Positions 12,481 through 43,129 of a DNA stretch of 64,000 bases are shown in pieces (positions within the stretch are counted from its first letter, which is position 1; each line of letters starts with the position of its first letter). Under the pieces are notes generated by a model that was not told the origin of the DNA, did no database searches, and saw only the letters and a list, made by a program, of their open reading frames with translations. Made by a program: the position numbers and the translations under genes. This stretch comes from Candidatus Jettenia sp. AMX2 (GTDB lineage Bacteria; Planctomycetota; Brocadiia; Brocadiales; Brocadiaceae), in assembly GCA_030583665.1 (NCBI GenBank), contig CP129469.1, positions 1,851,043 to 1,915,042 of the forward strand, in the 5' to 3' direction.

Positions 12481-14256
12481 TTATTCTGATAGTGCTGTTT
12501 CGGATACTGCTGGGGAGGAAATACTAGCGGCATACATATTCCAAAGCTTTTTTATTGCAACCGTGATAATTGCAGAGGCAAGCCCCAGAAGGATAACGTC
12601 TGCAATAATAAGGGTGATGCTGGCTTGCGGAATAAAGCGGTTAACAAGCAGAACGATTAACATGGTTATCGTCGTAACAAGCATGAATACTGCCGGAATA
12701 GCTGTAAACCAGACATTTTTCTTCCTTACAAGGAGCCAGAAGGACACAATAAGTAAGGTTACCGCAGCAAGGAGCTGGTTTGCCGTTCCAAATATCGACC
12801 AGATATTATTTACCGTATTGTTATAGGCAAGTCCAAACATCAGGCCTGCCGCCAAACCGGAATTGACCCAGTAATGGGTCAGAATTTTCGGAGGATGCCT
12901 GAAGATAACCCTCCAGAGTTCCTCGAACAGGTAACGATTCAGTCTCACAGCCGTGTCAAGCGTGGTAATGATAAATCCTTCCAGGAGCAGCATGCCGAAT
13001 AATATCCCAAAGGACAAGGGTAAACCAAATCCCGAAGAAAGCGTACGTCCCATAGCAAGGGCAAAAACCAATATGGGGTTACTCCGGAATCCTGATCCCT
13101 CCGCCGGTATAACCAATTCTTTATATTGATGCACATCAATATGCATAACAACAGCACATACCACGCAGAGGGCAAGGAACGATTCCAGTATCATGCCATA
13201 GTAGCCAACCTTGTGGATTGATCGTTCGGATTTAATCTGTTTGGAGGTTGTCCCGCTTGCACAAAGTGCATGAAAACCTGAAATTGCACCACAGGCAATT
13301 GTTATGAAAAGCCCTGGCCATAAAAAACCAACGTGGGATATCCCTTCCTGTATATTGTTGACAGGAAACCGGATACCACCCCCTTTGATACCTGACATAA
13401 AAATGCCTGCAAAAAGCAAACCCAGACCAATGTAAAGTAAATGGACATTAATAAAATCCCTTGACTGGAGAAATACCCAAACCGGAATCCCTGCAGCAAC
13501 CACAGTATAAAAAGAGATAAGTATCATCCACAGAAACGGGTTTAAAGAAACCGGTACAAAGATGCCTGCAACAACTGATGCACTACAGATCAGGATTGCA
13601 AAAAGGGAGCATTTTATAACGGAGACGTGTCTTTTTATGTAAAGATAACCAATAAGCGGGGCAAAGGCAGTAATAACGATAATAGACATAGAAGCGATTC
13701 CGCCTACGATAACCTGATTTCCTGCCTCATCTGCCCGGCGAAAAAGGATCTGATCTTTATTCAGACCAATTTGGGCAACGTCTATAACTGATGTCAGGGC
13801 TGTTGCAGATGCATTGAGGAAGGTGGCATTAACCAGGATCAGCATTACGATGGTAAATGAAACAACCAGGATAAAACCGGCGGTACCCAGGGATTTTCTG
13901 GCAACCTCTGCAATCGATTTCCCTCCCTCACGCACGCTCACAAACAGGGCAGAAAAATCATGCACGGCCCCGAAGAATATACCGCCAATTACGATCCACA
14001 ACCAGGCGGGTCCCCATCCATAAATTATTGCCATAATAGGACCGATAATCGGTCCCGCACCTGCTATCGTTGCAAAATGATGGGCGAAAACAACAGGGGT
14101 TGCGGTAGGAATATAATCCCGTTTATCATCAATTTTCACCGCAGGGGTAGTGCGCTCCGGATCAATTCCGATTGACCCCGATATATACCGGGCATAAAAG
14201 CGCCCTGCCAAAATAAAACAGGCAATCGAAATGAACAAGATTATAACAGGATTCAT
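12481..14256 (-). CDS. cstA: carbon starvation protein A (CstA-type transporter)
   Basis: A roughly 591-residue multi-spanning membrane protein. The CstA signature is clear: RDYIPTATPVVFAHHFATIA followed by GAGPIIGPIMAIIYGWGPAW, then GAVHDFSALFVSVREGGKSI. CstA proteins import peptides, pyruvate or related small metabolites. The ATG at 14256 is 5 bases after the stop of the upstream M20 gene, so translation is probably coupled; an in-frame TTG at 14274 is less likely. Pairing with an amidohydrolase suggests uptake and hydrolysis of an acylated or peptide substrate. Confidence 0.93.
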   Translation of the reverse strand: MNPVIILFISIACFILAGRFYARYISGSIGIDPERTTPAVKIDDKRDYIPTATPVVFAHHFATIAGAGPIIGPIMAIIYGWGPAWLWIVIGGIFFGAVHDFSALFVSVREGGKSIAEVARKSLGTAGFILVVSFTIVMLILVNATFLNASATALTSVIDVAQIGLNKDQILFRRADEAGNQVIVGGIASMSIIVITAFAPLIGYLYIKRHVSVIKCSLFAILICSASVVAGIFVPVSLNPFLWMILISFYTVVAAGIPVWVFLQSRDFINVHLLYIGLGLLFAGIFMSGIKGGGIRFPVNNIQEGISHVGFLWPGLFITIACGAISGFHALCASGTTSKQIKSERSIHKVGYYGMILESFLALCVVCAVVMHIDVHQYKELVIPAEGSGFRSNPILVFALAMGRTLSSGFGLPLSFGILFGMLLLEGFIITTLDTAVRLNRYLFEELWRVIFRHPPKILTHYWVNSGLAAGLMFGLAYNNTVNNIWSIFGTANQLLAAVTLLIVSFWLLVRKKNVWFTAIPAVFMLVTTITMLIVLLVNRFIPQASITLIIADVILLGLASAIITVAIKKLWNMYAASISSPAVSETALSE

Positions 14257-14261
14257 AATTT

Positions 14262-15443
14262 TTATGAACAGCAAGCAATATAAGTAAACAAGGCAGGTCC
14301 CATGTAAAGTATATCCTCATCAAGTAAAAACCGGGGGCTATGCAAAGGCTGGTTCGTACCCTTTTCAGGGCTACCTGAACCTAAAAAAATATAAGCACCC
14401 TTAATTTTCTCCAGATAATATGAGAAATCCTCCCCCCCCATCTTAGGCTCTATCTCTTCCACTGATTTACCACCAAATAACTCAACAATTTTATCTTGTA
14501 TGAATTCCAATTGGGGCCGTGGGTTATGAAGTGCAGGATGACCCTTCAGGTACTCAAACTGATATGATGCATTGTTCAGTGTGGCAATACCCTTAATTGT
14601 GTCCTCTATTAACAGGGGCATCTTGTACCTCAATTCCTTAGAGAGTGTTCTCACCGTTCCTGTAATATTTACCTTATCAGGAATGACATTAAAGGTTGTG
14701 CCACCCGTTATCTGACACAAGGATATTACGCAGGGTGATAAAGGATTTGTCCTTCTTGAGACAATCGTTTGGAGAGCCAGGATTACCTCGGCGGCAATGA
14801 CGACCGGATCTATACATAAATGCGGGGTTGATGCATGACCACCTCTCCCTGAAATCGTAATAACAATACGGTCTGTAGCCGCCATGGTAGCGCCGGAACG
14901 CACGCCGAAAACACCGGACGGAATATTCGGTTCAATATGTACTCCGTAAATCTCATCCACATCCTGGAGCACACCATGCTCTATCATGAGTTTTGCCCCG
15001 CCGGGATGCTGCTCCTCGCATGGCTGAAAGATAAATTTTATATGCCGTTTCAGTTTATCCCGTAGTTGCGCCGCAAGTCTTGCAGTGCCAAGGAGCATTG
15101 CCATATTGGCATCATGACCGCATGCATGCGATATTCCTTCATTCCTTGATTTAAATCCGAGATCATTTTCCTCGGTTACGGGCAGTGCATCCATATCGGC
15201 CCGGAAGGCTACCGTACGTGATGCACCATCAACCTGTAAAGTGGCAACGATCCCTGTTTTAGCCACATCTGTCTGTACGGAAAGTCCTAACTGTCTTAGT
15301 TCTTCGGCTATAACGCCGGAAGTGCGAAACTCATTGAATCCCGTCTCGGGGTATTCATGAAAATTCCTGCGCATCCGGACGATATAGTCATGTATCCTCC
15401 TGGCATTGGTAAGAATTTCTTCTGTCATTGTTCTGTTTTGCAT
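14262..15443 (-). CDS. M20-family amidohydrolase (N-acyl amino acid / hippurate type)
   Basis: A 393-residue zinc amidohydrolase. Visible metal-site motifs: AFRADMDALPVTEE (Asp), HACGHDANMAMLLGTA (His/Asp), FQPCEEQHPGGAKLMIEHGV (Glu pair), YGVHIEP and GGEDFSYYLEKI near the end. The lid domain begins near VRSGATMAATD. Such enzymes remove acetyl, benzoyl or other acyl groups from amino acids. It is followed closely by cstA. Given the upstream DgcN/DgcA-like genes, an N-acetylglutamate deacetylase role is possible but unproven. Two in-frame starts, ATG 15443 and ATG 15428, are possible. Confidence 0.88.
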   Translation of the reverse strand: MQNRTMTEEILTNARRIHDYIVRMRRNFHEYPETGFNEFRTSGVIAEELRQLGLSVQTDVAKTGIVATLQVDGASRTVAFRADMDALPVTEENDLGFKSRNEGISHACGHDANMAMLLGTARLAAQLRDKLKRHIKFIFQPCEEQHPGGAKLMIEHGVLQDVDEIYGVHIEPNIPSGVFGVRSGATMAATDRIVITISGRGGHASTPHLCIDPVVIAAEVILALQTIVSRRTNPLSPCVISLCQITGGTTFNVIPDKVNITGTVRTLSKELRYKMPLLIEDTIKGIATLNNASYQFEYLKGHPALHNPRPQLEFIQDKIVELFGGKSVEEIEPKMGGEDFSYYLEKIKGAYIFLGSGSPEKGTNQPLHSPRFLLDEDILYMGPALFTYIACCS

Positions 15444-15931
15444 GAATTAGGCCTTCGGCGACTAAAAAACACATTTTCCCTCCCTTGACGGGAGGGATTA
15501 AGGGAGGGTGATCACAGATTGTTCCTTTCACCCCCACCTAACCTCCCCCATCGAGCCTGCCTGTGCGTCGCCGCACGCAGACAGGGGGGAGGAACTAACA
15601 GCTTGAAATTCCTATACATTAAACTATTTTCAGATGTCTATCCTGACCCTGTCTCACTGCTCACCAAATAAGACTGTTTCTGTTATTGCGAGAAGCGAAG
15701 AAGCAATCTCTGTCTTTGGGATTGCTTCGGAAAAGACCCTCGCAATGACCGGTAAAAACATATAAGGGTGGGCACTTCCCACCAAAAAAACAATCGCCGT
15801 AAACGAACGAACAGGCAATTGGCAGGCAGTGCCTGCCCTACATAAAAAACATGTTTTAACACCACGAAGAACTTAGCGCAGTCAAAGGCCGCGCCAGGTG
15901 CATCGTGGTAGAAATTGTGTTCCTTTCATTT
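15444..15931. repeat. intergenic region with three dispersed repeat types
   Basis: No gene is seen. Present are a CCCTCCC...GGGAGGG-rich repeat (15478-15595, related to 62098-62172), a GAAGCAATCTC...CTCGCAATGACC repeat (15683-15748) and a GGGTGGGCACTTCCCACC plus GGCAGGCAGTGCCTGCCC pair (15768-15841). Confidence 0.6.
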
Positions 15932-16960
15932 TTATTTACCGGAACCTTTTTCCACAACCCCAAGTCCGTTACCTTCCGGCAGTATCAACCTTCCCTTGTC
16001 AACGATGACACCTCTGTATGGGTCATTTGTAATGAGTAAATGTCCGTCAAGATCAACATAGTCGGCAAGGGACGCCAGATGAGCGGCGGCTGTGATAGAG
16101 AGTGAGCTTTCAATATTACAGCCAATCATTACTTTAAGGCCGTGAGCTCTGGCTGTATGAATGGTCCGGAGCGCTTCGCGAATACCGCCACACTTCATGA
16201 GTTTTATATTAATTCCCTCCACTACCTCTGACAATGCCGGTATATCGGATGAAGTTCTGATATCTTCATCTGCGAAAACAGGAATCTTTACCTGTCCTCT
16301 TATCCTTCTCAGGGCATCAATATTGCCAACCGGAAACGGTTGTTCCACGAGCTCCACATCAAGCTTTTCCATTTTATGCAACTTTCTTATTGCCTCATCT
16401 GCTGTCCAGCCGGTATTGGCATCGACGCGAAAGACTGCCTTCGTAATCTTTCGCAATTCGCCAAGCATCTCTATGTCGTTTCCCTTACCAACCTTTATCT
16501 TAAGAACAGGAAAATCCTTAGCCTCCTCAACCTTCTCACACATCTTTTCAATGGTATCAAGCCCTATCGTAAATGATGTTAACCTTGTTCCTGGTTGATT
16601 AAGCCCCAAAAGCTTGTAGAGAGGCACTTTCAGCTTCTTACCAACCATATCATATAGCGCTATATCAATCGCCGCCCGGGCTGCAGCGTCCACGGGAAAT
16701 CTGTTTGCAAGAGAACTGGTTATATCTTCTATGGAAAAGGGATCGGCATTTCCCAGCAAGTCTGCCGCTTTGATAAGCATTCCGGTAACGTTGTGTAATT
16801 CTTCTCCGAAAAAACCGGTTGGTGCGGCTTCTCCGATCCCGCAGGTTTCTTCACTGTCTTTTAATTGAACTGCAACGTTATTTTGAATACTACGGGTTTC
16901 CCTGGCGATCTGAAAGGTGTGCTTTAGTTTTAAGGTAAGCGGATAAAAGGATAATTTCAT
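15932..16960 (-). CDS. dgcA: enolase-superfamily epimerase (DgcA-like / dipeptide epimerase)
   Basis: A 342-residue muconate-lactonising subgroup enzyme: LKIKVG (Lys pair, about 158-163), RVDANTGW, ELVEQPF, VFADED and INIKLMKCGGI supply the two catalytic lysines and the Mg ligands. Relatives are L-Ala-D/L-Glu epimerases; a subset acts as N-acetyl-D-glutamate racemase (DgcA) with the DUF1611 N-acetyltransferase DgcN. Its start overlaps the upstream DUF1611 gene by ATGA, so the two are tightly coupled, which favours DgcA. The alternative is a dipeptide epimerase of peptidoglycan recycling. Confidence 0.75.
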   Translation of the reverse strand: MKLSFYPLTLKLKHTFQIARETRSIQNNVAVQLKDSEETCGIGEAAPTGFFGEELHNVTGMLIKAADLLGNADPFSIEDITSSLANRFPVDAAARAAIDIALYDMVGKKLKVPLYKLLGLNQPGTRLTSFTIGLDTIEKMCEKVEEAKDFPVLKIKVGKGNDIEMLGELRKITKAVFRVDANTGWTADEAIRKLHKMEKLDVELVEQPFPVGNIDALRRIRGQVKIPVFADEDIRTSSDIPALSEVVEGINIKLMKCGGIREALRTIHTARAHGLKVMIGCNIESSLSITAAAHLASLADYVDLDGHLLITNDPYRGVIVDKGRLILPEGNGLGVVEKGSGK

Positions 16961-17991
16961 GGCAAAAGAGGGCGAATAACATCAAGAAATTTTGCTACGC
17001 CAAATCTGACAGGATCGGTAGCAGGAAGTTTTGTCTCTTTTTCCGTATTCCGTATCTCCTGCAGTGCATCATGCTCGGACATACCATAAGAATTAAGGGA
17101 AATTCCCAGTACTTTACAGGGATAGAAAGGCTGTGCCAGCTTTTCGTAAAGTTCAATCAGATCGTGAAGTGGTAACATGGGAAACTTTGTATGTCTCAGT
17201 ATTTTCCTTGCCGGCTGATGACAGAGGATAAGGCCTTGCGGAGCCGTACCATGCAGTAGACCGAGGGTAACACCGGAATATGCCGGATGGATAACGGATC
17301 CCTGTCCCTCAATGCTTAATAACCGAAAATGAGCCCGGTCTAATACAAGTTTTTCTGCTGCACCGGAAATAAAATCGGAAAGAACATGGTCTACGGCGAT
17401 CCCACTCCCTTCAATCATAATACCGGTCTGTCCGGTTGCTACAAAACAGGCATTAATCCCCTCCTTCTTTGCTGCATGAGTAACCTCAAGGGAAGTCAGC
17501 ATTTTACCTACATTACAATCCGAGCCTACCGTAAGAATCCGCAACGTCCGTGTCTCTTTCGCCCTCCCTGTCCCGATACCAATATCCTTGGGCGATTTAC
17601 GGACATCACGAATATTCACCTCGTGGTCGCGTGCCAATTGCAAAAATTGAGGGTCTTCGCCTAAATAACAATGAAGACCACTCACAATATTCAGTTTATT
17701 CCTGATTGCATCTGTAATATGATTGCGCCATTCAACCGGAAGTGTCCCCCCGGGAGGGGCAATACCGATAAGAAGATCCGTAGGTTGTAACGGCATTGCC
17801 TCCGCAACATTGCTGACAACAGGAATGTTTTTACCAATGCCGATAAGGGAAGCAGCATCTTTTCCTGTGTTAAAGCGGTCTATAATACCAACGACCTCCT
17901 CTTTGCGATACCGGATAACACCTACTGCTGTTTTGGCATTGAAAATATCGAATTTTCCTTCAGCCAGTATAAGAATCCTTTGCTTTGTCAT
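16957..17991 (-). CDS. dgcN: DUF1611 protein, DgcN-like (D-glutamate N-acetyltransferase)
   Basis: A 344-residue DUF1611 protein. The P-loop-like segment is TVGSDCNVGKMLTSLEVTHA (about residues 174-193), after an N-terminal Rossmann-like domain (VGVIRYRKEEVVGIID, then LIGIAPPGGTLP). Described members N-acetylate D-glutamate, and the product is racemised by DgcA. Adjacency to an enolase-type epimerase, with a 4-base overlap, is the usual arrangement. It follows a GcvH-like gene by 14 bases. Function is inferred from family and context. Confidence 0.75.
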   Translation of the reverse strand: MTKQRILILAEGKFDIFNAKTAVGVIRYRKEEVVGIIDRFNTGKDAASLIGIGKNIPVVSNVAEAMPLQPTDLLIGIAPPGGTLPVEWRNHITDAIRNKLNIVSGLHCYLGEDPQFLQLARDHEVNIRDVRKSPKDIGIGTGRAKETRTLRILTVGSDCNVGKMLTSLEVTHAAKKEGINACFVATGQTGIMIEGSGIAVDHVLSDFISGAAEKLVLDRAHFRLLSIEGQGSVIHPAYSGVTLGLLHGTAPQGLILCHQPARKILRHTKFPMLPLHDLIELYEKLAQPFYPCKVLGISLNSYGMSEHDALQEIRNTEKETKLPATDPVRFGVAKFLDVIRPLLP

Positions 17992-18005: not shown

Positions 18006-18434
18006 TTATTTTCGTCTTTTCCCTTTGGTGTGATGTTTTTCTGTGGTGGAAGATTCTAATTTGCGGATATGCATCTCATATTCCGTTGCACTTAACAATT
18101 GATCAAAAACGTGTACTTCGTTTGTTGCCAATTTTATAAGCCAGCCTTGTTTGTATGGATCCCGGTTGAGAACATCTAAATTCTCATATAACCGCTCATT
18201 TACCGCGATAACTTCGCCGTTCATCACAGAGGTAATGTTCATAAGCATCTCCAATGACTCAACTTCTCCAAAAGATATGCCTGAAAGTATCTCCTCTCCA
18301 ACTTTCGGAAGATCAAGAAACAATAATCTGCCAAGTTTATTCAGAATAAACCCGGACAGACCAATGGTAACAAATTTTTCATGATAAGAAAACCATTCAT
18401 GGGTATCTGCATACTTTAAGTGTCCCGGGAACAT
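18006..18434 (-). CDS. GcvH-like protein without the lipoyl lysine
   Basis: A 142-residue protein with the glycine-cleavage H-protein fold: KYADTHEWFSYHEKFVTIGL at the start, LPKVGEEILSG, then GEVIAVNERL and DPYKQGWLIKL. In ordinary H proteins the lipoylated Lys sits in E-S-V-K-A. Here the matching text is ESLEML, so Glu replaces Lys and lipoylation there is impossible. The C-terminal 15 residues are very basic (HHTKGKRRK). It is the first gene of the probable gcvH-like/dgcN/dgcA operon. A role as a scaffold or regulator is a guess. Confidence 0.8.
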   Translation of the reverse strand: MFPGHLKYADTHEWFSYHEKFVTIGLSGFILNKLGRLLFLDLPKVGEEILSGISFGEVESLEMLMNITSVMNGEVIAVNERLYENLDVLNRDPYKQGWLIKLATNEVHVFDQLLSATEYEMHIRKLESSTTEKHHTKGKRRK

Positions 18435-18480: not shown

Positions 18481-18510
18481 ATATTAACACAAATATGTCA
18501 AAACTGTCAA
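18481..18510 (-). promoter_or_regulatory. promoter of the gcvH-like/dgcN/dgcA operon
   Basis: Read leftward: TTGACA (18510-18505), 18-base spacer, TAATAT (18486-18481), about 46 bases before the ATG at 18434. A second TTGACA lies inside the spacer. Confidence 0.45.
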
Positions 18511-37095: not shown

Positions 37096-38073
37096 ATGAT
37101 GGATATTCAACGAGATGATTTACTGCAAATGTATTATTATCTCAAATTAACCCGCAAGTTTGAAGAAAGGATCACCTCGCTGTATCATCAGGGAAGAATA
37201 TTGGGAGGAGCATGGACAAGTAACGGTACAGAGGCGGTTTCCGTGGGGTATGCCTTTGCGCTTGAAAAAAATGACATTGCGGCTTCGTATTTCAGAGATA
37301 TGGGAGCGTTCATTATCCGGGGCATTTCCGTAAAACGCATTATGGCCCAATATTTGGGTAAAAAAACAGGCGTGTCAGGAGGAAAGGAAGGTAATGTTCA
37401 TATAGGAGATTTGAATTATGGCGTTTTTGGTTTTCCCAGTCATCTTGCAGATAACTATCCTGTCGGAGCAGGCGCAGCCCTTGCCTTTAAAATCCGGGGG
37501 GAAAAAAGGGTAGTTGCTGCTTGTACCGGAGACGGCGGAACAAGCCGTGGTGATTTCCACGAAGCAATGAACTTTGCCTCTGTAAGAAAATTACCTATTG
37601 TGTTTTTTTGTAATAATAACCAGTATGCCTATTCAACACCGCTCCATTTGCAAATGGCCGTTAAAAACATTGCAGATCGCGCCCTCGCTTATGGCATGCC
37701 CAATAAGATTGTAGACGGAAATAATGTTGTGGACGTCTATACCGCCGCAAAGGAGGCATACGAATTTGCACGGAATGGCGGCGGACCTACCTTTATTGAG
37801 TGCAAGACCATGAGGATGCATGGCCATTCTGAACACGACAGCGCCAAGTATGTACCGCGCGAATTATTGGAGGAATGGAGGAAGAAAGACCCTATTACAA
37901 ATATGGAAACATATTTACGGGAAAACAATATTGTAAAAAAAGAAGAACTGGATAGTATTGATACTCGGATTAAGAATGAAATTGACGAGGCTGAAGAGTT
38001 TGCAGAAACTAGCCCCTACCCGTCTCCGGAAGATGCACTTGAAGACGTGTATGCAACTCCGGTAGAAGAATAA
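37096..38073 (+). CDS. pdhA: pyruvate dehydrogenase-type E1 alpha subunit
   Basis: A 325-residue thiamine-diphosphate enzyme subunit. Substrate-side motif GGKEGNVHIGDLNYGVFGFP, then the cofactor motif CTGDGGTSRGDFHEAMNFAS followed by VRKLPIVFFCNNNQYAYSTP (G-D-G...N-N), and HSEHDSAKY late. It pairs with E1 beta (38236) and E2 (39226) and probably oxidises pyruvate (acetoin or branched-chain acids are alternatives). A 162-base gap with a degraded repeat separates it from E1 beta. Two adjacent ATG codons (37096, 37099) are possible. Confidence 0.92.
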   Translation: MMDIQRDDLLQMYYYLKLTRKFEERITSLYHQGRILGGAWTSNGTEAVSVGYAFALEKNDIAASYFRDMGAFIIRGISVKRIMAQYLGKKTGVSGGKEGNVHIGDLNYGVFGFPSHLADNYPVGAGAALAFKIRGEKRVVAACTGDGGTSRGDFHEAMNFASVRKLPIVFFCNNNQYAYSTPLHLQMAVKNIADRALAYGMPNKIVDGNNVVDVYTAAKEAYEFARNGGGPTFIECKTMRMHGHSEHDSAKYVPRELLEEWRKKDPITNMETYLRENNIVKKEELDSIDTRIKNEIDEAEEFAETSPYPSPEDALEDVYATPVEE

Positions 38074-38235
38074 ATGAGTGCTGATCAGAAGAGCTGGAGA
38101 ATGAATACAGGACAAGGCTTACATCTGACATTCCTACAAGAGGCTGCTTCATCGCTACGCTCCTCTCTATGACATGACCTGCAAACATTTTACTGAAACA
38201 TAAGAAACAGCGTTATAAAAAGGATATATGGAGTT

Positions 38236-39210
38236 ATGAAAGAGATCAACTACCTGGAAGCAATTAAAGAGGCATTATATGAAGAAATGGTGAGGGATCA
38301 GAGTGTACTCATATTGGGTGAAGATGTCGGAGTATATGGCGGAGCATTTCGTGTAACAGAAGGGTTTTATGAAAAATTCGGGGAATGGCGCGTTCTTGAT
38401 ACCCCGTTATCGGAATCCGGATTTACCGGTGCTGCAATTGGTGCATCATTAGTGGGCATGAGACCTGTGGTGGAGATGCAATTTGCCGATTTTATCTCCT
38501 GTGCATTTGATCAGTTGGTAAATGTTGCAGCAAAGAACCATTACCGCTGGGGAGCAGCCACTCCCATTGTCGTACGTGCACCCTATGGCGGAAATATCCA
38601 CGGTGGCGCATTCCACTCACAGTGTATTGAAGGGTTTTTTTTCAATGTACCGGGACTGAAAATCGTTGCCCCTTCAACTGCATACGACGCAAAAGGTTTA
38701 CTCAAGGCATCTATTCGCGATAATGACCCTGTTATTTACTGTGAACACAAATATCTCTACCGGCGCATTAAAGACCCGGTTCCGGAGGAAGATTACGTAG
38801 TGCCTATTGGGAAAGCACGTGTTGCCATGGAAGGCCGGGATGTATCGGTTATCACTTACGGAGCAATGGTACATACTGCCATTGAAGCTGCACAAATGCT
38901 GAAAGACAAGAAAATCTCCTGTGAAATTATTGATTTAAGAACCATTTTACCTTTGGATAAAAAGTCAATCTTTACTACCGTGCAGAAAACAAATAAGGTT
39001 GTTGTCGTACATGAACAGACAAAAACAGGCGGTGTCGGGGCCGAGATATCTGCGCTCATCAATGAATATTGCTTTGAATATCTGGATGGACCCGTTATCC
39101 GAGTTGCAGCCCCTGATACTCCTGTACCGTTCAGCGCACCGATGGAAGAAGCCTTTATACCAAAAGCAAGCGACATTGTCTCTGCAGTAGAAAAACTTGT
39201 CCGTTATTAA
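38236..39210 (+). CDS. pdhB: pyruvate dehydrogenase-type E1 beta subunit
   Basis: A 324-residue partner of E1 alpha. LILGEDVGVYGGAFRVTEGF near the start, DTPLSESGFTGAAIGASLVG, PIVVRAPYGGNIHGGAFHSQ and IDLRTILPLDKKSI are typical. It follows E1 alpha and precedes E2 by 15 bases, so E1 beta and E2 share a transcript. AAAAGGATATATGG precedes the ATG. Confidence 0.94.
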   Translation: MKEINYLEAIKEALYEEMVRDQSVLILGEDVGVYGGAFRVTEGFYEKFGEWRVLDTPLSESGFTGAAIGASLVGMRPVVEMQFADFISCAFDQLVNVAAKNHYRWGAATPIVVRAPYGGNIHGGAFHSQCIEGFFFNVPGLKIVAPSTAYDAKGLLKASIRDNDPVIYCEHKYLYRRIKDPVPEEDYVVPIGKARVAMEGRDVSVITYGAMVHTAIEAAQMLKDKKISCEIIDLRTILPLDKKSIFTTVQKTNKVVVVHEQTKTGGVGAEISALINEYCFEYLDGPVIRVAAPDTPVPFSAPMEEAFIPKASDIVSAVEKLVRY

Positions 39211-39225
39211 GAGGAGATACGGGAT

Positions 39226-40488
39226 ATGCCTATTGATGTAATTATGCCGCAAATGGGTGAAAGTGTAGCAGAGGGAACCATCAGTAAATGGCTCGTACAT
39301 GAAGGAGACACCGTTGAAAAGGATCAGCCTGTCGTTGAAATAAGTACAGATAAAATTGATACGGAAGTGCCCTCTCCCGTTAAAGGTATTTTAAAAAAAA
39401 TCCTGTATCCGGAAGGAAAGACCGTGCCGGTACAAACAGTAATTGCTCAAATCGAGTCGGCTGAACAAAAAGGCGGTATGGAGATACCCGAAAAAAGACC
39501 TGAATTTGCCAAAAAAGCCGAAGAGGTAAAAGAACCCGAAAGAACTGAGGAGAAAGAAAAAAGATACTCACCGTTAGTCCGGAGATTGGCCAGAGAATAC
39601 CATGTTAATTTAGAAGAGATAAAAGGTACCGGTGAAGGTGGACGTATAACAAAAAAGGATATTATGGACTATGTGTCTTTAAAACCAGTTATTTCCGCCC
39701 CTCCTCCGGAGGAGGCCGAAAAGAGGGTTGTTGAAAGAGAGGTGCTTGTCCCGCTCAATCCGAAAAGAAGGCTTACCGCCGAAAGAATGATACAGAGTAA
39801 ACGGGCAGCCGCTCATGTAACAACGGTATTTGAAATTGACATGACCAATATTGAACGATATCGGGAAATACACAATGTTATATTAAAAAAAGAAGGAATA
39901 CATTTTACTTATCTGCCATTCATAACCCTTGCTGCAGCACGCGCACTTAGAGAATACCCTATCATGAATTCATCCTGGACAGATGATGGCATATTGCAAA
40001 AGAACTATATCAATATAGGAATGGCGGTATCTCTTGAAGACGGACTCATTGTCCCTGTTATCAGGGATGCAGACAAGAAGGATCTTCTGCAATTATCACG
40101 GGAAATACAGGATCTCGCTAAACGTTCACGTGAAAAAAAATTAACTCCGGAAGATGTTCAGGGAGGAACTTTTACCATTACCAACTATGGTATTAATGGA
40201 AGCCTCTTGGGAACGCCCGTTATCTTATTGCCGCAAGTTGCTATTTTAGGTGCAGGGGCTGTCGTGAAAAAACCTGTTGTTATCGCCGGTGATGCAATTG
40301 CAATTCGTTCCATGATGTATCTCAGCCTTTCATTCGACCACCGTGTTATGGACGGAGCAAATGCAGATACGTTCCTTCGTAAAATAAAAGATATTTTAGA
40401 AAAGTGGGAGGTTTTTTCTCATAAAAAGGATACATCATATGAAAAGGAACACACTGCTCCTCCAACCGGGTATGGTGGAGTATGGTGA
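39226..40488 (+). CDS. dihydrolipoamide acyltransferase E2
   Basis: A 420-residue E2 component. N-terminal lipoyl domain with VEISTDKIDTEVPSP (lipoyl Lys about 43), a Glu/Lys-rich linker, a peripheral-subunit-binding domain (YSPLVRRLAREYHVNLEEIK then GTGEGGRITKKDI, about 118-150), then the CAT acyltransferase domain ending SLSFDHRVMDGANADTF (catalytic His). A 50-base overlap with the following lipB gene gives it an unusual 20-residue tail after the normal domain end. The E3 gene is not in the window. Confidence 0.93.
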   Translation: MPIDVIMPQMGESVAEGTISKWLVHEGDTVEKDQPVVEISTDKIDTEVPSPVKGILKKILYPEGKTVPVQTVIAQIESAEQKGGMEIPEKRPEFAKKAEEVKEPERTEEKEKRYSPLVRRLAREYHVNLEEIKGTGEGGRITKKDIMDYVSLKPVISAPPPEEAEKRVVEREVLVPLNPKRRLTAERMIQSKRAAAHVTTVFEIDMTNIERYREIHNVILKKEGIHFTYLPFITLAAARALREYPIMNSSWTDDGILQKNYINIGMAVSLEDGLIVPVIRDADKKDLLQLSREIQDLAKRSREKKLTPEDVQGGTFTITNYGINGSLLGTPVILLPQVAILGAGAVVKKPVVIAGDAIAIRSMMYLSLSFDHRVMDGANADTFLRKIKDILEKWEVFSHKKDTSYEKEHTAPPTGYGGVW

Positions 40489-41173
40489 AGCATGGGAACT
40501 TCAAAAGGCTCTGTTAGAGGCAAGGGCTTCGGATTCAATACCTGACTGCCTTATCCTGCTCCAGCATCCCCCGACTTTTACCTTTGGGCGCAGGTACAAA
40601 GAGGCAAACTTATTCTCAAACAGGGCATATTACGAGGATCATGGATTTGCTGTTTACAAAACGGACCGTGGTGGACTGGCGACCTACCATGGACCGGGTC
40701 AGGCAGTTGGTTATCCTATCATAAAAATGAACACCTATACAAAGGATTTTCATTATTATCTCCGGATGCTGGAAAATGTAATGATCGGAACGCTTTCTGA
40801 TATGGGAATTCCTGCACAACGAAAAGATGGATACACAGGTGTATGGATTCGTGACGCAAAAATCGGTTTCATCGGCATCAGGGTGGCGTTTGGATACACC
40901 ATGCATGGTTTTTCCCTCAATATAAACAATGACCTGAAACCATTTGATTACATAACGCCTTGCGGCATTGAAGGAATAACAATCACTTCCGTCAGGAATA
41001 TAACCAATTCAAAGATAGACATGCAGGAGGTTTATGATATACTTAGATATAATTATTCAAATGTATTTAATGTAAGTTTGATACCAACTAAAATAGAGAT
41101 GGTAATGCAGGAAATATACCTCATGGAAAACCACAGAACAAACAGGTATCAGCATCAAACAGATGAAACCTAA
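40439..41173 (+). CDS. lipB: octanoyltransferase LipB
   Basis: A 244-residue octanoyl transferase that loads the lipoyl domain. HPPTFTFGRRYKEANLF, RGGLATYHGPGQAVGYPII, KIGFIGIRVAFGYTMHGFSL (catalytic Lys) and ITPCGIEG (catalytic Cys) are all present. It overlaps E2 by 50 bases, so it is co-translated with its own substrate protein. lipA lies 1.07 kb downstream. Confidence 0.95.
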   Translation: MKRNTLLLQPGMVEYGEAWELQKALLEARASDSIPDCLILLQHPPTFTFGRRYKEANLFSNRAYYEDHGFAVYKTDRGGLATYHGPGQAVGYPIIKMNTYTKDFHYYLRMLENVMIGTLSDMGIPAQRKDGYTGVWIRDAKIGFIGIRVAFGYTMHGFSLNINNDLKPFDYITPCGIEGITITSVRNITNSKIDMQEVYDILRYNYSNVFNVSLIPTKIEMVMQEIYLMENHRTNRYQHQTDET

Positions 41174-41399
41174 CAGAAAATGTAGGCACTTGACCTGTAA
41201 ACATTGACATTTTTGTCGATAAGTAAATTCATCATGTCAACCGGGACATAACTTACCCTGAATACATTTGCTGGCAGACAAGCGGGGACGCTTGTCACAA
41301 TAATAATTCCTTACATGCAGGAAGGTAAACCTAAAGGTTTGCCCCTGCGTTTCTCACGTTCGTACGTAGAAAAATCTTAATCTTTTTCGGGTGGAATTA

Positions 41400-42236
41400 A
41401 TGACATTTACAAATATTTATCATAACGGAATTTTGGCGGAGGGGAGAAAAAAGGGGATATTTGGCAGCATAAAAGATAAAAAGATACAGGATATAAAACG
41501 TGACCGATGGATGGGCGGACCACGAGGCCCCGAAAAGTTAACGTTTACGGATGGCAGTGCCGTAATATTTAAATGTGATATCCGGCGTTACTGGTCATCT
41601 ATTAATCCGGATACCCCTATCCGTGAGGCAATTGTATATCAAATTGATAAGATAGTAGGTCTCGGACTGGTACCCAAAACCATGGTAATTGATGATACCA
41701 TTGGTAGCGTGCAATATGACGGGGCAGTTCAGGAATGGATCCCCGATGCGGTAGACGGATATCAGATTGATAAGTTTACAGCAAATCAAAAGAAAGATTT
41801 TGAACGCCTCAAGGTTTTTGATTTTATTATTGGGAACGATGACAGGCATTTGGGAAATTTACTGTTTGATAAAAATGGTAAGATGTATGCTATAGATAAT
41901 TCGGCCTGCCTTGTTATCGATAAAGATGAAGACATTCTGGGTTTTTCAGATTCAATACTCTATTTCTTCAGCACACATGTTATTCATGACATGCCGCATG
42001 TAGTTGAAATCATTGAAAAATTCTATACGAATAAAGATCAGATATTGTCACTAATAGATACCTACATCCGTGACAATACAGAGCTTGCCAAATTAATAGT
42101 GGAGTCGAGGATTAATTTTCTGTATAAGATGATAAAAATAGACAGGCCTTTCCCAAGAAAGTACCTGCAATGGCGAAATAAATTAAAAGAAGAAATAAAT
42201 AGTATCTTAAACAGGAAAAATATACCTCTTATGTAA
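41400..42236 (+). CDS. PI3/4-kinase-like protein
   Basis: A 278-residue protein with a C-terminal lipid/protein-kinase-like catalytic loop: FDFIIGNDDRHLGNLLF (D-x-x-x-x-N) followed by MYAIDNSAC, where the Asp of the DFG-like motif would be. Upstream, KLTFTDGSAVIFKCDIRRYW could be the ATP-side strand with the Lys. No signal peptide is seen. The start at 41400 follows GGTGG; an earlier in-frame GTG at 41391 is possible. Situated between lipB and lipA, 11 bases before lipA. Substrate unknown. Confidence 0.65.
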   Translation: MTFTNIYHNGILAEGRKKGIFGSIKDKKIQDIKRDRWMGGPRGPEKLTFTDGSAVIFKCDIRRYWSSINPDTPIREAIVYQIDKIVGLGLVPKTMVIDDTIGSVQYDGAVQEWIPDAVDGYQIDKFTANQKKDFERLKVFDFIIGNDDRHLGNLLFDKNGKMYAIDNSACLVIDKDEDILGFSDSILYFFSTHVIHDMPHVVEIIEKFYTNKDQILSLIDTYIRDNTELAKLIVESRINFLYKMIKIDRPFPRKYLQWRNKLKEEINSILNRKNIPLM

Positions 42237-42247
42237 ATACAAAACTC

Positions 42248-43129
42248 ATGCATCCGGATTGGTTAAAAACACGACTGCCTTCAGGAGAAAATTTCAACGA
42301 AATAAAGGGTATTTTACATAAGGAAAAACTTCACACCGTATGTGAAGAGGCATTATGCCCGAATATTGGAGAATGTTTTGAACAACGGACGGCAACGTTT
42401 TTAATACTTGGTGACATATGTACCAGACGCTGCGGATTTTGCGCTGTCAAAAAAGGAAACCCGTCCGGAATCTATGAGGATGAACCGTACCGGATTGCCG
42501 GTGCGGTAAAGGAAATTGGCTTACAATATGTTGTAATCACCTCCGTCACAAGGGACGACCTTACCGATGGCGGCGCCTCAATTTACTCGAGGACACTACA
42601 CGCGATCCGAAGGGCTGTGAAAAATTGCAGGATAGAAGTTTTAATCCCTGATTTTCGTGGCAATACAGAAGCACTGGAAATATTGCTAGAAGCAAAGCCG
42701 GACGTCCTGAATCACAACCTAGAAACAATACCCCGGCTCTATTCACTCGTCAGGCCTCAGGCTGATTATTTCCGCTCACTGAAATTGTTGAGACATGCAC
42801 ATGAAAAAATGCCGGCCTTAATTATAAAATCAGGGATGATGCTGGGTATCGGCGAAGAATGGAACGAGATCCTTGATACGATGCTGATGATAAGAAGTAC
42901 CGGCTGTGGTATCCTTACGCTGGGACAATATCTGAAACCAACAAAAAATGCCCTGCCAATTCAACGCTATTATACCCCGGATGAGTTTGAGTTATTACGG
43001 GCGGAAGGGAAACGAATGGGTTTTCAACACGTCGAATCGGGACCACTCGTACGCAGTTCTTATCATGCAAAGACGCAATCTGACATACTGTTTCTGCAGG
43101 AAGGCGAAACAATTCGTTGTTACGAATGA
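42248..43129 (+). CDS. lipA: lipoyl synthase LipA
   Basis: A 293-residue radical-SAM enzyme that inserts two sulfurs into octanoyl-lysine. Auxiliary-cluster motif CEEALCPNIGEC, radical-SAM cluster motif CTRRCGFC, and the C-terminal RSSYHA typical of LipA are all visible. Downstream of the kinase-like gene by 11 bases. With lipB it completes lipoylation of E2. Confidence 0.96.
   Translation: MHPDWLKTRLPSGENFNEIKGILHKEKLHTVCEEALCPNIGECFEQRTATFLILGDICTRRCGFCAVKKGNPSGIYEDEPYRIAGAVKEIGLQYVVITSVTRDDLTDGGASIYSRTLHAIRRAVKNCRIEVLIPDFRGNTEALEILLEAKPDVLNHNLETIPRLYSLVRPQADYFRSLKLLRHAHEKMPALIIKSGMMLGIGEEWNEILDTMLMIRSTGCGILTLGQYLKPTKNALPIQRYYTPDEFELLRAEGKRMGFQHVESGPLVRSSYHAKTQSDILFLQEGETIRCYE

Follow-up and report, generated by a model that had tools for sequence, protein, structure and literature searches.

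A carrier domain is defined by the lysine that bears its cofactor. The lipoate-binding protein LbpA, a paralogue of the glycine cleavage H protein (GcvH) that belongs to the sulfur-oxidizing Hdr-like systems, is lipoylated on its lysine and encoded in hdr clusters (PMC6067878), and it shows that an H paralogue can serve elsewhere than in glycine cleavage while keeping its lysine (PMC6067878, PMC10332631). The BADC proteins of plants lack the biotinylation motif of BCCP and act as assembly glue; an inhibitory role in acetyl-CoA carboxylase was also, and first, proposed for them (PMC11926652).

The window analyzed here, a stretch of 64,000 nucleotides from the complete 3.46 Mb genome of Candidatus Jettenia sp. 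AMX2, contains a gcvH-like gene that differs from all of these. Its product resembles GcvH (PF01597, TIGR00527) in fold, core length, and the signature residues HEW...DPYxxGW, with 28-46% identity in the comparisons made, but it lacks the lipoyl lysine, carries a basic tail, and is not encoded beside gcvT or gcvP. Unlike LbpA, it has no lysine at the attachment site, and its gene lies near dgcN, dgcA, and genes for a GIY-YIG protein and MutS rather than in an sHdr cluster. As in BADC, the attachment residue has been lost clade-wide from a retained fold; however, BADC belongs to the biotinyl (BCCP) family of plants, and the likeness is one of logic only and not of homologous function. By this analogy, BADC may be considered the closest precedent in logic for an adaptor mode. 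The protein scored 56.2 bits against TIGR03077 ('not_gcvH'; cut-off 144.05), and showed weak sequence and fold similarity to GcvH-L of Streptococcus (5a35; 18% identity), two types that likewise stand apart from classical GcvH; it also differs in that no sirtuin or macrodomain gene was recognized next to the gcvH-like gene. The likeness to the DgcN-DgcA D-glutamate pathway consists of homologues of both enzymes encoded directly downstream; an H-like protein is not mentioned in the passages on dgcN consulted in PMC12363236. A search of open papers on anammox and GcvH or on lysine-less H proteins found nothing on this family.

The residue at the lipoyl-attachment site

The gene and the codon of interest were mapped as follows:

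18006..18434, minus strand: gcvH-like gene, 142 amino acids, H-protein fold without a lipoyl lysine (open reading frame, Pfam, and AlphaFold)
18249-18251, minus strand: GAG codon of Glu62 at the lipoyl-lysine position (alignments with GcvH Lys64 of the same genome and with PDB H proteins)

The encoded protein matched Pfam GCV_H (PF01597) with 99.7 bits (E=1.4e-28, cut-off 22.2) over 119 of the 122 model positions, and scored 102.2 bits against the GcvH equivalog TIGR00527, under the cut-off of 115.85. The AlphaFold model has a pLDDT of 90.9, with residues 133-142 below 50. Nearly all top Foldseek matches were H proteins, at about 0.9-1.7 A and E about 1e-13, some of them from structures that also contain T protein, LplA, or LIAS; the bovine H protein (3klr) was matched with a TMt of 0.94 at 1.0 A. 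The well-kept H fold that had been claimed in an earlier, sequence-only reading of this DNA was thus confirmed.

The same reading had placed a glutamate where lipoate is attached in H proteins. Glu62 was found to pair with Lys64 of the same genome's GcvH under all nine scoring schemes (three matrices combined with three gap costs), to stand opposite the lipoyl lysine of the pea (1dxm) and mouse H proteins in ungapped alignments, and to lie within the 61-63 hairpin of the AlphaFold model, with strands 54-60 and 64-68 on either side. The nine alignments, the PDB H-protein matches, and the model rule out a misaligned site, and the placement of the glutamate stands. Judged from its sequence, the protein is unable to carry a lipoyl group at site 62.

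The source genome belongs to family f1, which was taken as Brocadiaceae (records of Candidatus Brocadia, Jettenia, and Anammoxibacter occur among the relatives' loci), and contains two matches to HZS_alpha (hydrazine synthase), which identify the source as an anammox bacterium. A check for a second, true gcvH, proposed with the earlier reading, revealed a lysine-bearing gene with the motif VESVKA at G000:C1:2402033-2402404, adjoining gcvT; the genome also encodes a two-part GcvP. The gcvH-like gene is linked to neither gcvT nor gcvP, and the copy by gcvT is the lysine-bearing one. True, lysine-bearing GcvH was also read from genomes of f1, f2, f4, and f5. Automatic annotation is expected, and likely, to label the gcvH-like protein 'glycine cleavage system protein H'; metabolic reconstructions should not count the lysine-less protein as GcvH.

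A separate group of lipoyl-related genes was observed about 20 kb from the gcvH-like gene:

37096-43129, plus strand: pyruvate dehydrogenase cluster (E1 alpha and beta, E2, LipB-like, and LipA-like genes; named by sequence reading rather than by profile search)

The E2 of this cluster has a normal, lysine-bearing lipoyl motif.

Distribution and descent of the lysine-less family

The search of class Brocadiia covered 75 genomes (62 Brocadiales and 13 others), and samples were taken elsewhere in the bacteria. A lysine-less protein was found in 59 of the 62 Brocadiales genomes (30 in f1, nine in f2, seventeen in f4, two in f5, and one in f3), with one copy broken; it was not found in the remaining Brocadiales genomes searched, G002, G406, and G407. 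The broken copy, at locus L165 of G037 (f4), is interrupted by in-frame stops. Outside Brocadiales, 10 of the 13 Brocadiia genomes were found to encode a lysine-less relative. All loci from outside the order among the best 80 matches of a species-wide scan had the lysine. Restriction of the family to Brocadiales was nevertheless overturned by the lysine-less relatives from the rest of the class and by such proteins in two further families, f19 and f56.

Among the 44 distinct Brocadiales sequences, the residue at the site was E in 17, D in 15, N in nine, S in two, and H in one, and all 82 other rows of the same alignment had K; each of the 30 f1 genomes with the gene has E, D, N, S, or H. The ten relatives from the rest of the class have E (four), D (three), Q, R, or A. 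Lysine was found at the site in none of the relatives of this family read in Brocadiales. The conservation of the glutamate itself, which the sequence-only reading had put forward for checking, was therefore not borne out, and the variety of residues excludes Glu as a specific functional residue; on the aligned sequences, the conserved feature of site 62 is the absence of lysine. A lysine anywhere at positions 58-67 was present in nine of the 44 Brocadiales sequences, always at position 63, where it belongs to the f1 motif (E/D/N)KL. Since lysine occurs near the hairpin only at this position and in this minority, no substitute acceptor is conserved there, and this candidate was rejected.

A tree of the 44 lysine-less and 82 lysine-bearing rows, built with the site column omitted, separated the two sets by one branch (SH-aLRT 95), and the Brocadiales group was also recovered in a larger tree (support 89/82). 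In the class-wide Brocadiia tree, from which positions 50, 53, and 62 were omitted, a moderately supported branch (66/88) placed all lysine-less rows of the class on the same side. A single loss of the lysine, at the base of class Brocadiia or close to it, is probable. The three lysine-less proteins from f19 and f56 (L184, L185, and L189) formed a clade of their own (100/99), nested in a set that includes lysine-bearing rows (100/97); they have D or N at the site and strongly acidic tails. These sequence relationships indicate that these two other planctomycete families lost the lysine independently of Brocadiia.

The dN/dS ratios (NG86) were 0.03-0.19 in close pairs of lysine-less genes, with one outlier pair (L023/L026, 0.39), and by this measure the proteins are under purifying selection. 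The single lysine-less clade, the low dN/dS, and the presence of a true GcvH in the same genome agree with the earlier proposal that the gene has been retained for another task.

Two side observations concern other GcvH-like genes. Loci L233-L238 (f2, f3, and f4) encode a third GcvH-like type, with the motif SFGSLEAGKYIGPLKA and a lysine at the aligned site. In one f1 genome (G244:C1:1943249-1945240), GcvH-like sequence was matched four times; one match is partial, and two lie near each other.

Gene neighborhood in Brocadiaceae and in other families

The surroundings of the gene in the window comprise the following features:

18481..18510, minus strand: promoter-like TTGACA-18-TAATAT, 5' of the gcvH-like gene (consensus match only)
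16957..17991, minus strand: DgcN-like gene (DUF1611_N and DUF1611_C; Pfam, 239 bits)
15932..16960, minus strand: DgcA-like gene of the enolase superfamily, racemase/epimerase (NCBIfam DgcA)
14262..15443, minus strand: M20 amidohydrolase gene, also downstream in relatives (profile matches)

A gap of 14 bases separates the gcvH-like gene from the DgcN-like gene on the same strand, and the DgcN- and DgcA-like genes overlap by 4 bases, which upholds the earlier suggestion that the gene heads an operon with them. The best NCBIfam matches of the two downstream proteins were DgcN (278.5 bits, cut-off 480) and DgcA (243.5 bits, cut-off 400); as both scores are under the equivalog cut-offs, the D-glutamate assignment is hypothetical. 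The M20 gene is separated from dgcA by about 490 bases with terminator-like hairpins. Within this gap, a MITE-like inverted repeat was noted at 15640-15760 (attgcgagaagcgaagaagcaatctc ... gattgcttcgg ... ctcgcaatgac). The M20 gene is followed by one further gene:

12481-14274, minus strand: CstA-like transporter gene

No CstA match was present in the relatives' loci read.

The order gcvH-like, dgcN, dgcA on one strand was found in 30 of the 30 Brocadiaceae (f1) genomes that have the gene, including G404 and G405 (loci L041 and L042). DUF1611 was detected in 28 of the 29 f1 genomes searched and adjoins the gcvH-like gene in all 28; G002 lacks both. The M20 gene comes next after dgcA in several f1 loci, and on the other side of the gcvH-like gene, most f1 loci have a GIY-YIG gene and mutS, which diverge from it. 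The three genes stand in the same order in f3. The neighbors are miaA and an HD/OB gene in f2, and thpR, a CPBP protease gene, and tyrS in f4, and those in f5 differ too (names from sequence reading). DUF1611 was found in none of the 14 f2 and f4 genomes searched that carry the gcvH-like gene (seven of each family, one copy broken), and in both f5 genomes the gene lies on another contig than DUF1611. Conservation of the operon order thus stood for Brocadiaceae and f3 and failed for f2, f4, and f5; apart from dgcN-dgcA in the former two, no neighborhood was conserved across the order.

The different neighborhoods and the lack of DUF1611 in f2 and f4 indicate that the gene does not depend on its place in the operon. 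Because it is kept in 14 genomes without DUF1611, its general purpose does not lie in D-glutamate metabolism, and the task beside a D-glutamate pathway that the sequence-only reading had considered did not hold as a general one. The operon is a lineage-specific clue and not an explanation.

Altered residues, basic tail, and proposed function

The strongest differences between the lysine-less and the lysine-bearing proteins were found at sites 62, 50, and 53, and also at 30, 64, 65, 83, 86, and 109. Two of these are the end residues of a short segment that precedes the former lipoyl hairpin closely in the sequence:

18276..18287, minus strand: codons Leu50 to Ile53, whose end residues are hydrophobic in the lysine-less clade (column counts)

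Position 53 is hydrophobic in 37 of 37 lysine-less proteins versus 2 of 97 lysine-bearing ones, and position 50 in 35 of 37 versus 7 of 97. In true H proteins, both positions are charged or polar and variable, which suggests that they are exposed there. On this sequence pattern, the edge that formerly bore the lipoyl group would have become a hydrophobic contact surface; the hydrophobic residues may also stem from shared descent rather than from function.

The family is real, old, and selected; as to mechanism, we infer that its members are pseudo-H proteins, GcvH paralogues freed of lipoate that act as adaptors or scaffolds, with a probability of about 0.5. The task must be one other than lipoate carriage, probably protein docking. 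With no lipoyl lysine and no conserved replacement nearby, an adaptor or scaffold is the most economical reading. The paralogue would have lost the lysine and then worked without lipoate, as a non-catalytic protein that binds a partner through the edge that once presented the lipoyl arm. In Brocadiaceae, where the gene is first in the dgcN-dgcA transcription unit and its product would be made together with DgcN and DgcA, it might act on those enzymes, as a secondary link. The wider account, to which we would give roughly even odds, is that, at the base of class Brocadiia, the H fold was released from lipoate for good to become a docking or tethering protein, kept by nearly all members of the anammox order Brocadiales, with lineage-specific basic tails, and that a second, independent loss with acidic tails occurred in two planctomycete families. 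A selected, class-wide H-fold family without the cofactor lysine would mean that the fold has come to serve as an interaction module alone, and it adds a conserved protein to those of the anammox bacteria.

The retained fold, which superimposes at about 1.0-1.7 A on solved H proteins, including the complexed ones noted above, would also suit a decoy that regulates glycine cleavage or lipoylation: by occupying the place of the H protein, it would reduce the activity of T, P, or L protein or of the enzymes of lipoyl assembly. Three lipoylation determinants of the bovine H protein (Glu at -3, Gly at -16, and Gly at +11 relative to the attachment site) are mostly kept, and possible targets are encoded in the genome (GcvT, GcvP, and true GcvH) and in the window (E2 and the LipB-like and LipA-like proteins). 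However, the conserved residues are largely those of the whole H family, the positions near the hairpin that turned hydrophobic would be expected to change the H-protein interface instead of mimicking it, and the gene is linked with neither gcv nor lip genes at the loci read, so that this role appears unlikely. It is likewise doubtful that the protein is dedicated to a DgcN-DgcA(-M20) module for acetyl-glutamate racemization, as its subunit or scaffold: the fixed order in all 30 Brocadiaceae genomes and in f3, the M20 gene that follows in several, and the joint absence of both genes from G002 argue for it, but the 14 f2 and f4 genomes that have the gene without DUF1611, and the separate contigs in both f5 genomes, argue against it.

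The narrow choice of E, D, or N in 41 of the 44 Brocadiales sequences might point to a carrier that attaches its group through another residue, or that binds a cofactor non-covalently in what was once the lipoyl groove. However, E, D, and N are common turn residues, other relatives have S, H, Q, R, or A, and no other lysine is conserved near the hairpin, which makes such a carrier very improbable. Finally, the broken copy in G037 is what would be expected of a decaying duplicate without function, an explanation that is hardly credible for a gene retained across the order and the class, with the above dN/dS of 0.03-0.2 in most pairs and an intact predicted fold.

In the preferred adaptor reading, a basic tail would tether the protein to a polyanion or an acidic surface:

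18009..18062, minus strand: basic C-terminal tail, residues 125-142, ending in KGKRRK (net charge and pLDDT)

The net charge of the tail, counted after residue 119, is +5 in the Jettenia protein and ranges from +5 to +26 in f1 (median +12) and from +4 to +38 in f4; it is +6 and +15 in f5, +2 to +6 in f2, where the tail is short, and 0 in f3, where it is absent. The C-terminal charge of the true GcvH proteins of the same genomes is -2 to +1. On these sequences, the tail is a lineage-specific addition in most Brocadiales families, and since it is short in f2 and absent in f3, it is not essential to the basic function. The tail was rejected as a marker of hydrazine synthase: HZS_alpha occurs in f2 genomes, where the tail is almost lacking, and G003 and G007 (f1) encode tailed proteins without an HZS_alpha match. 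Long, histone-H1-like, lysine-rich tails of up to +38 were observed at the f4 loci L034, L161, L208, and L211, and the f4 tails contain the repeats KKAVKK and KKKPERKKK.
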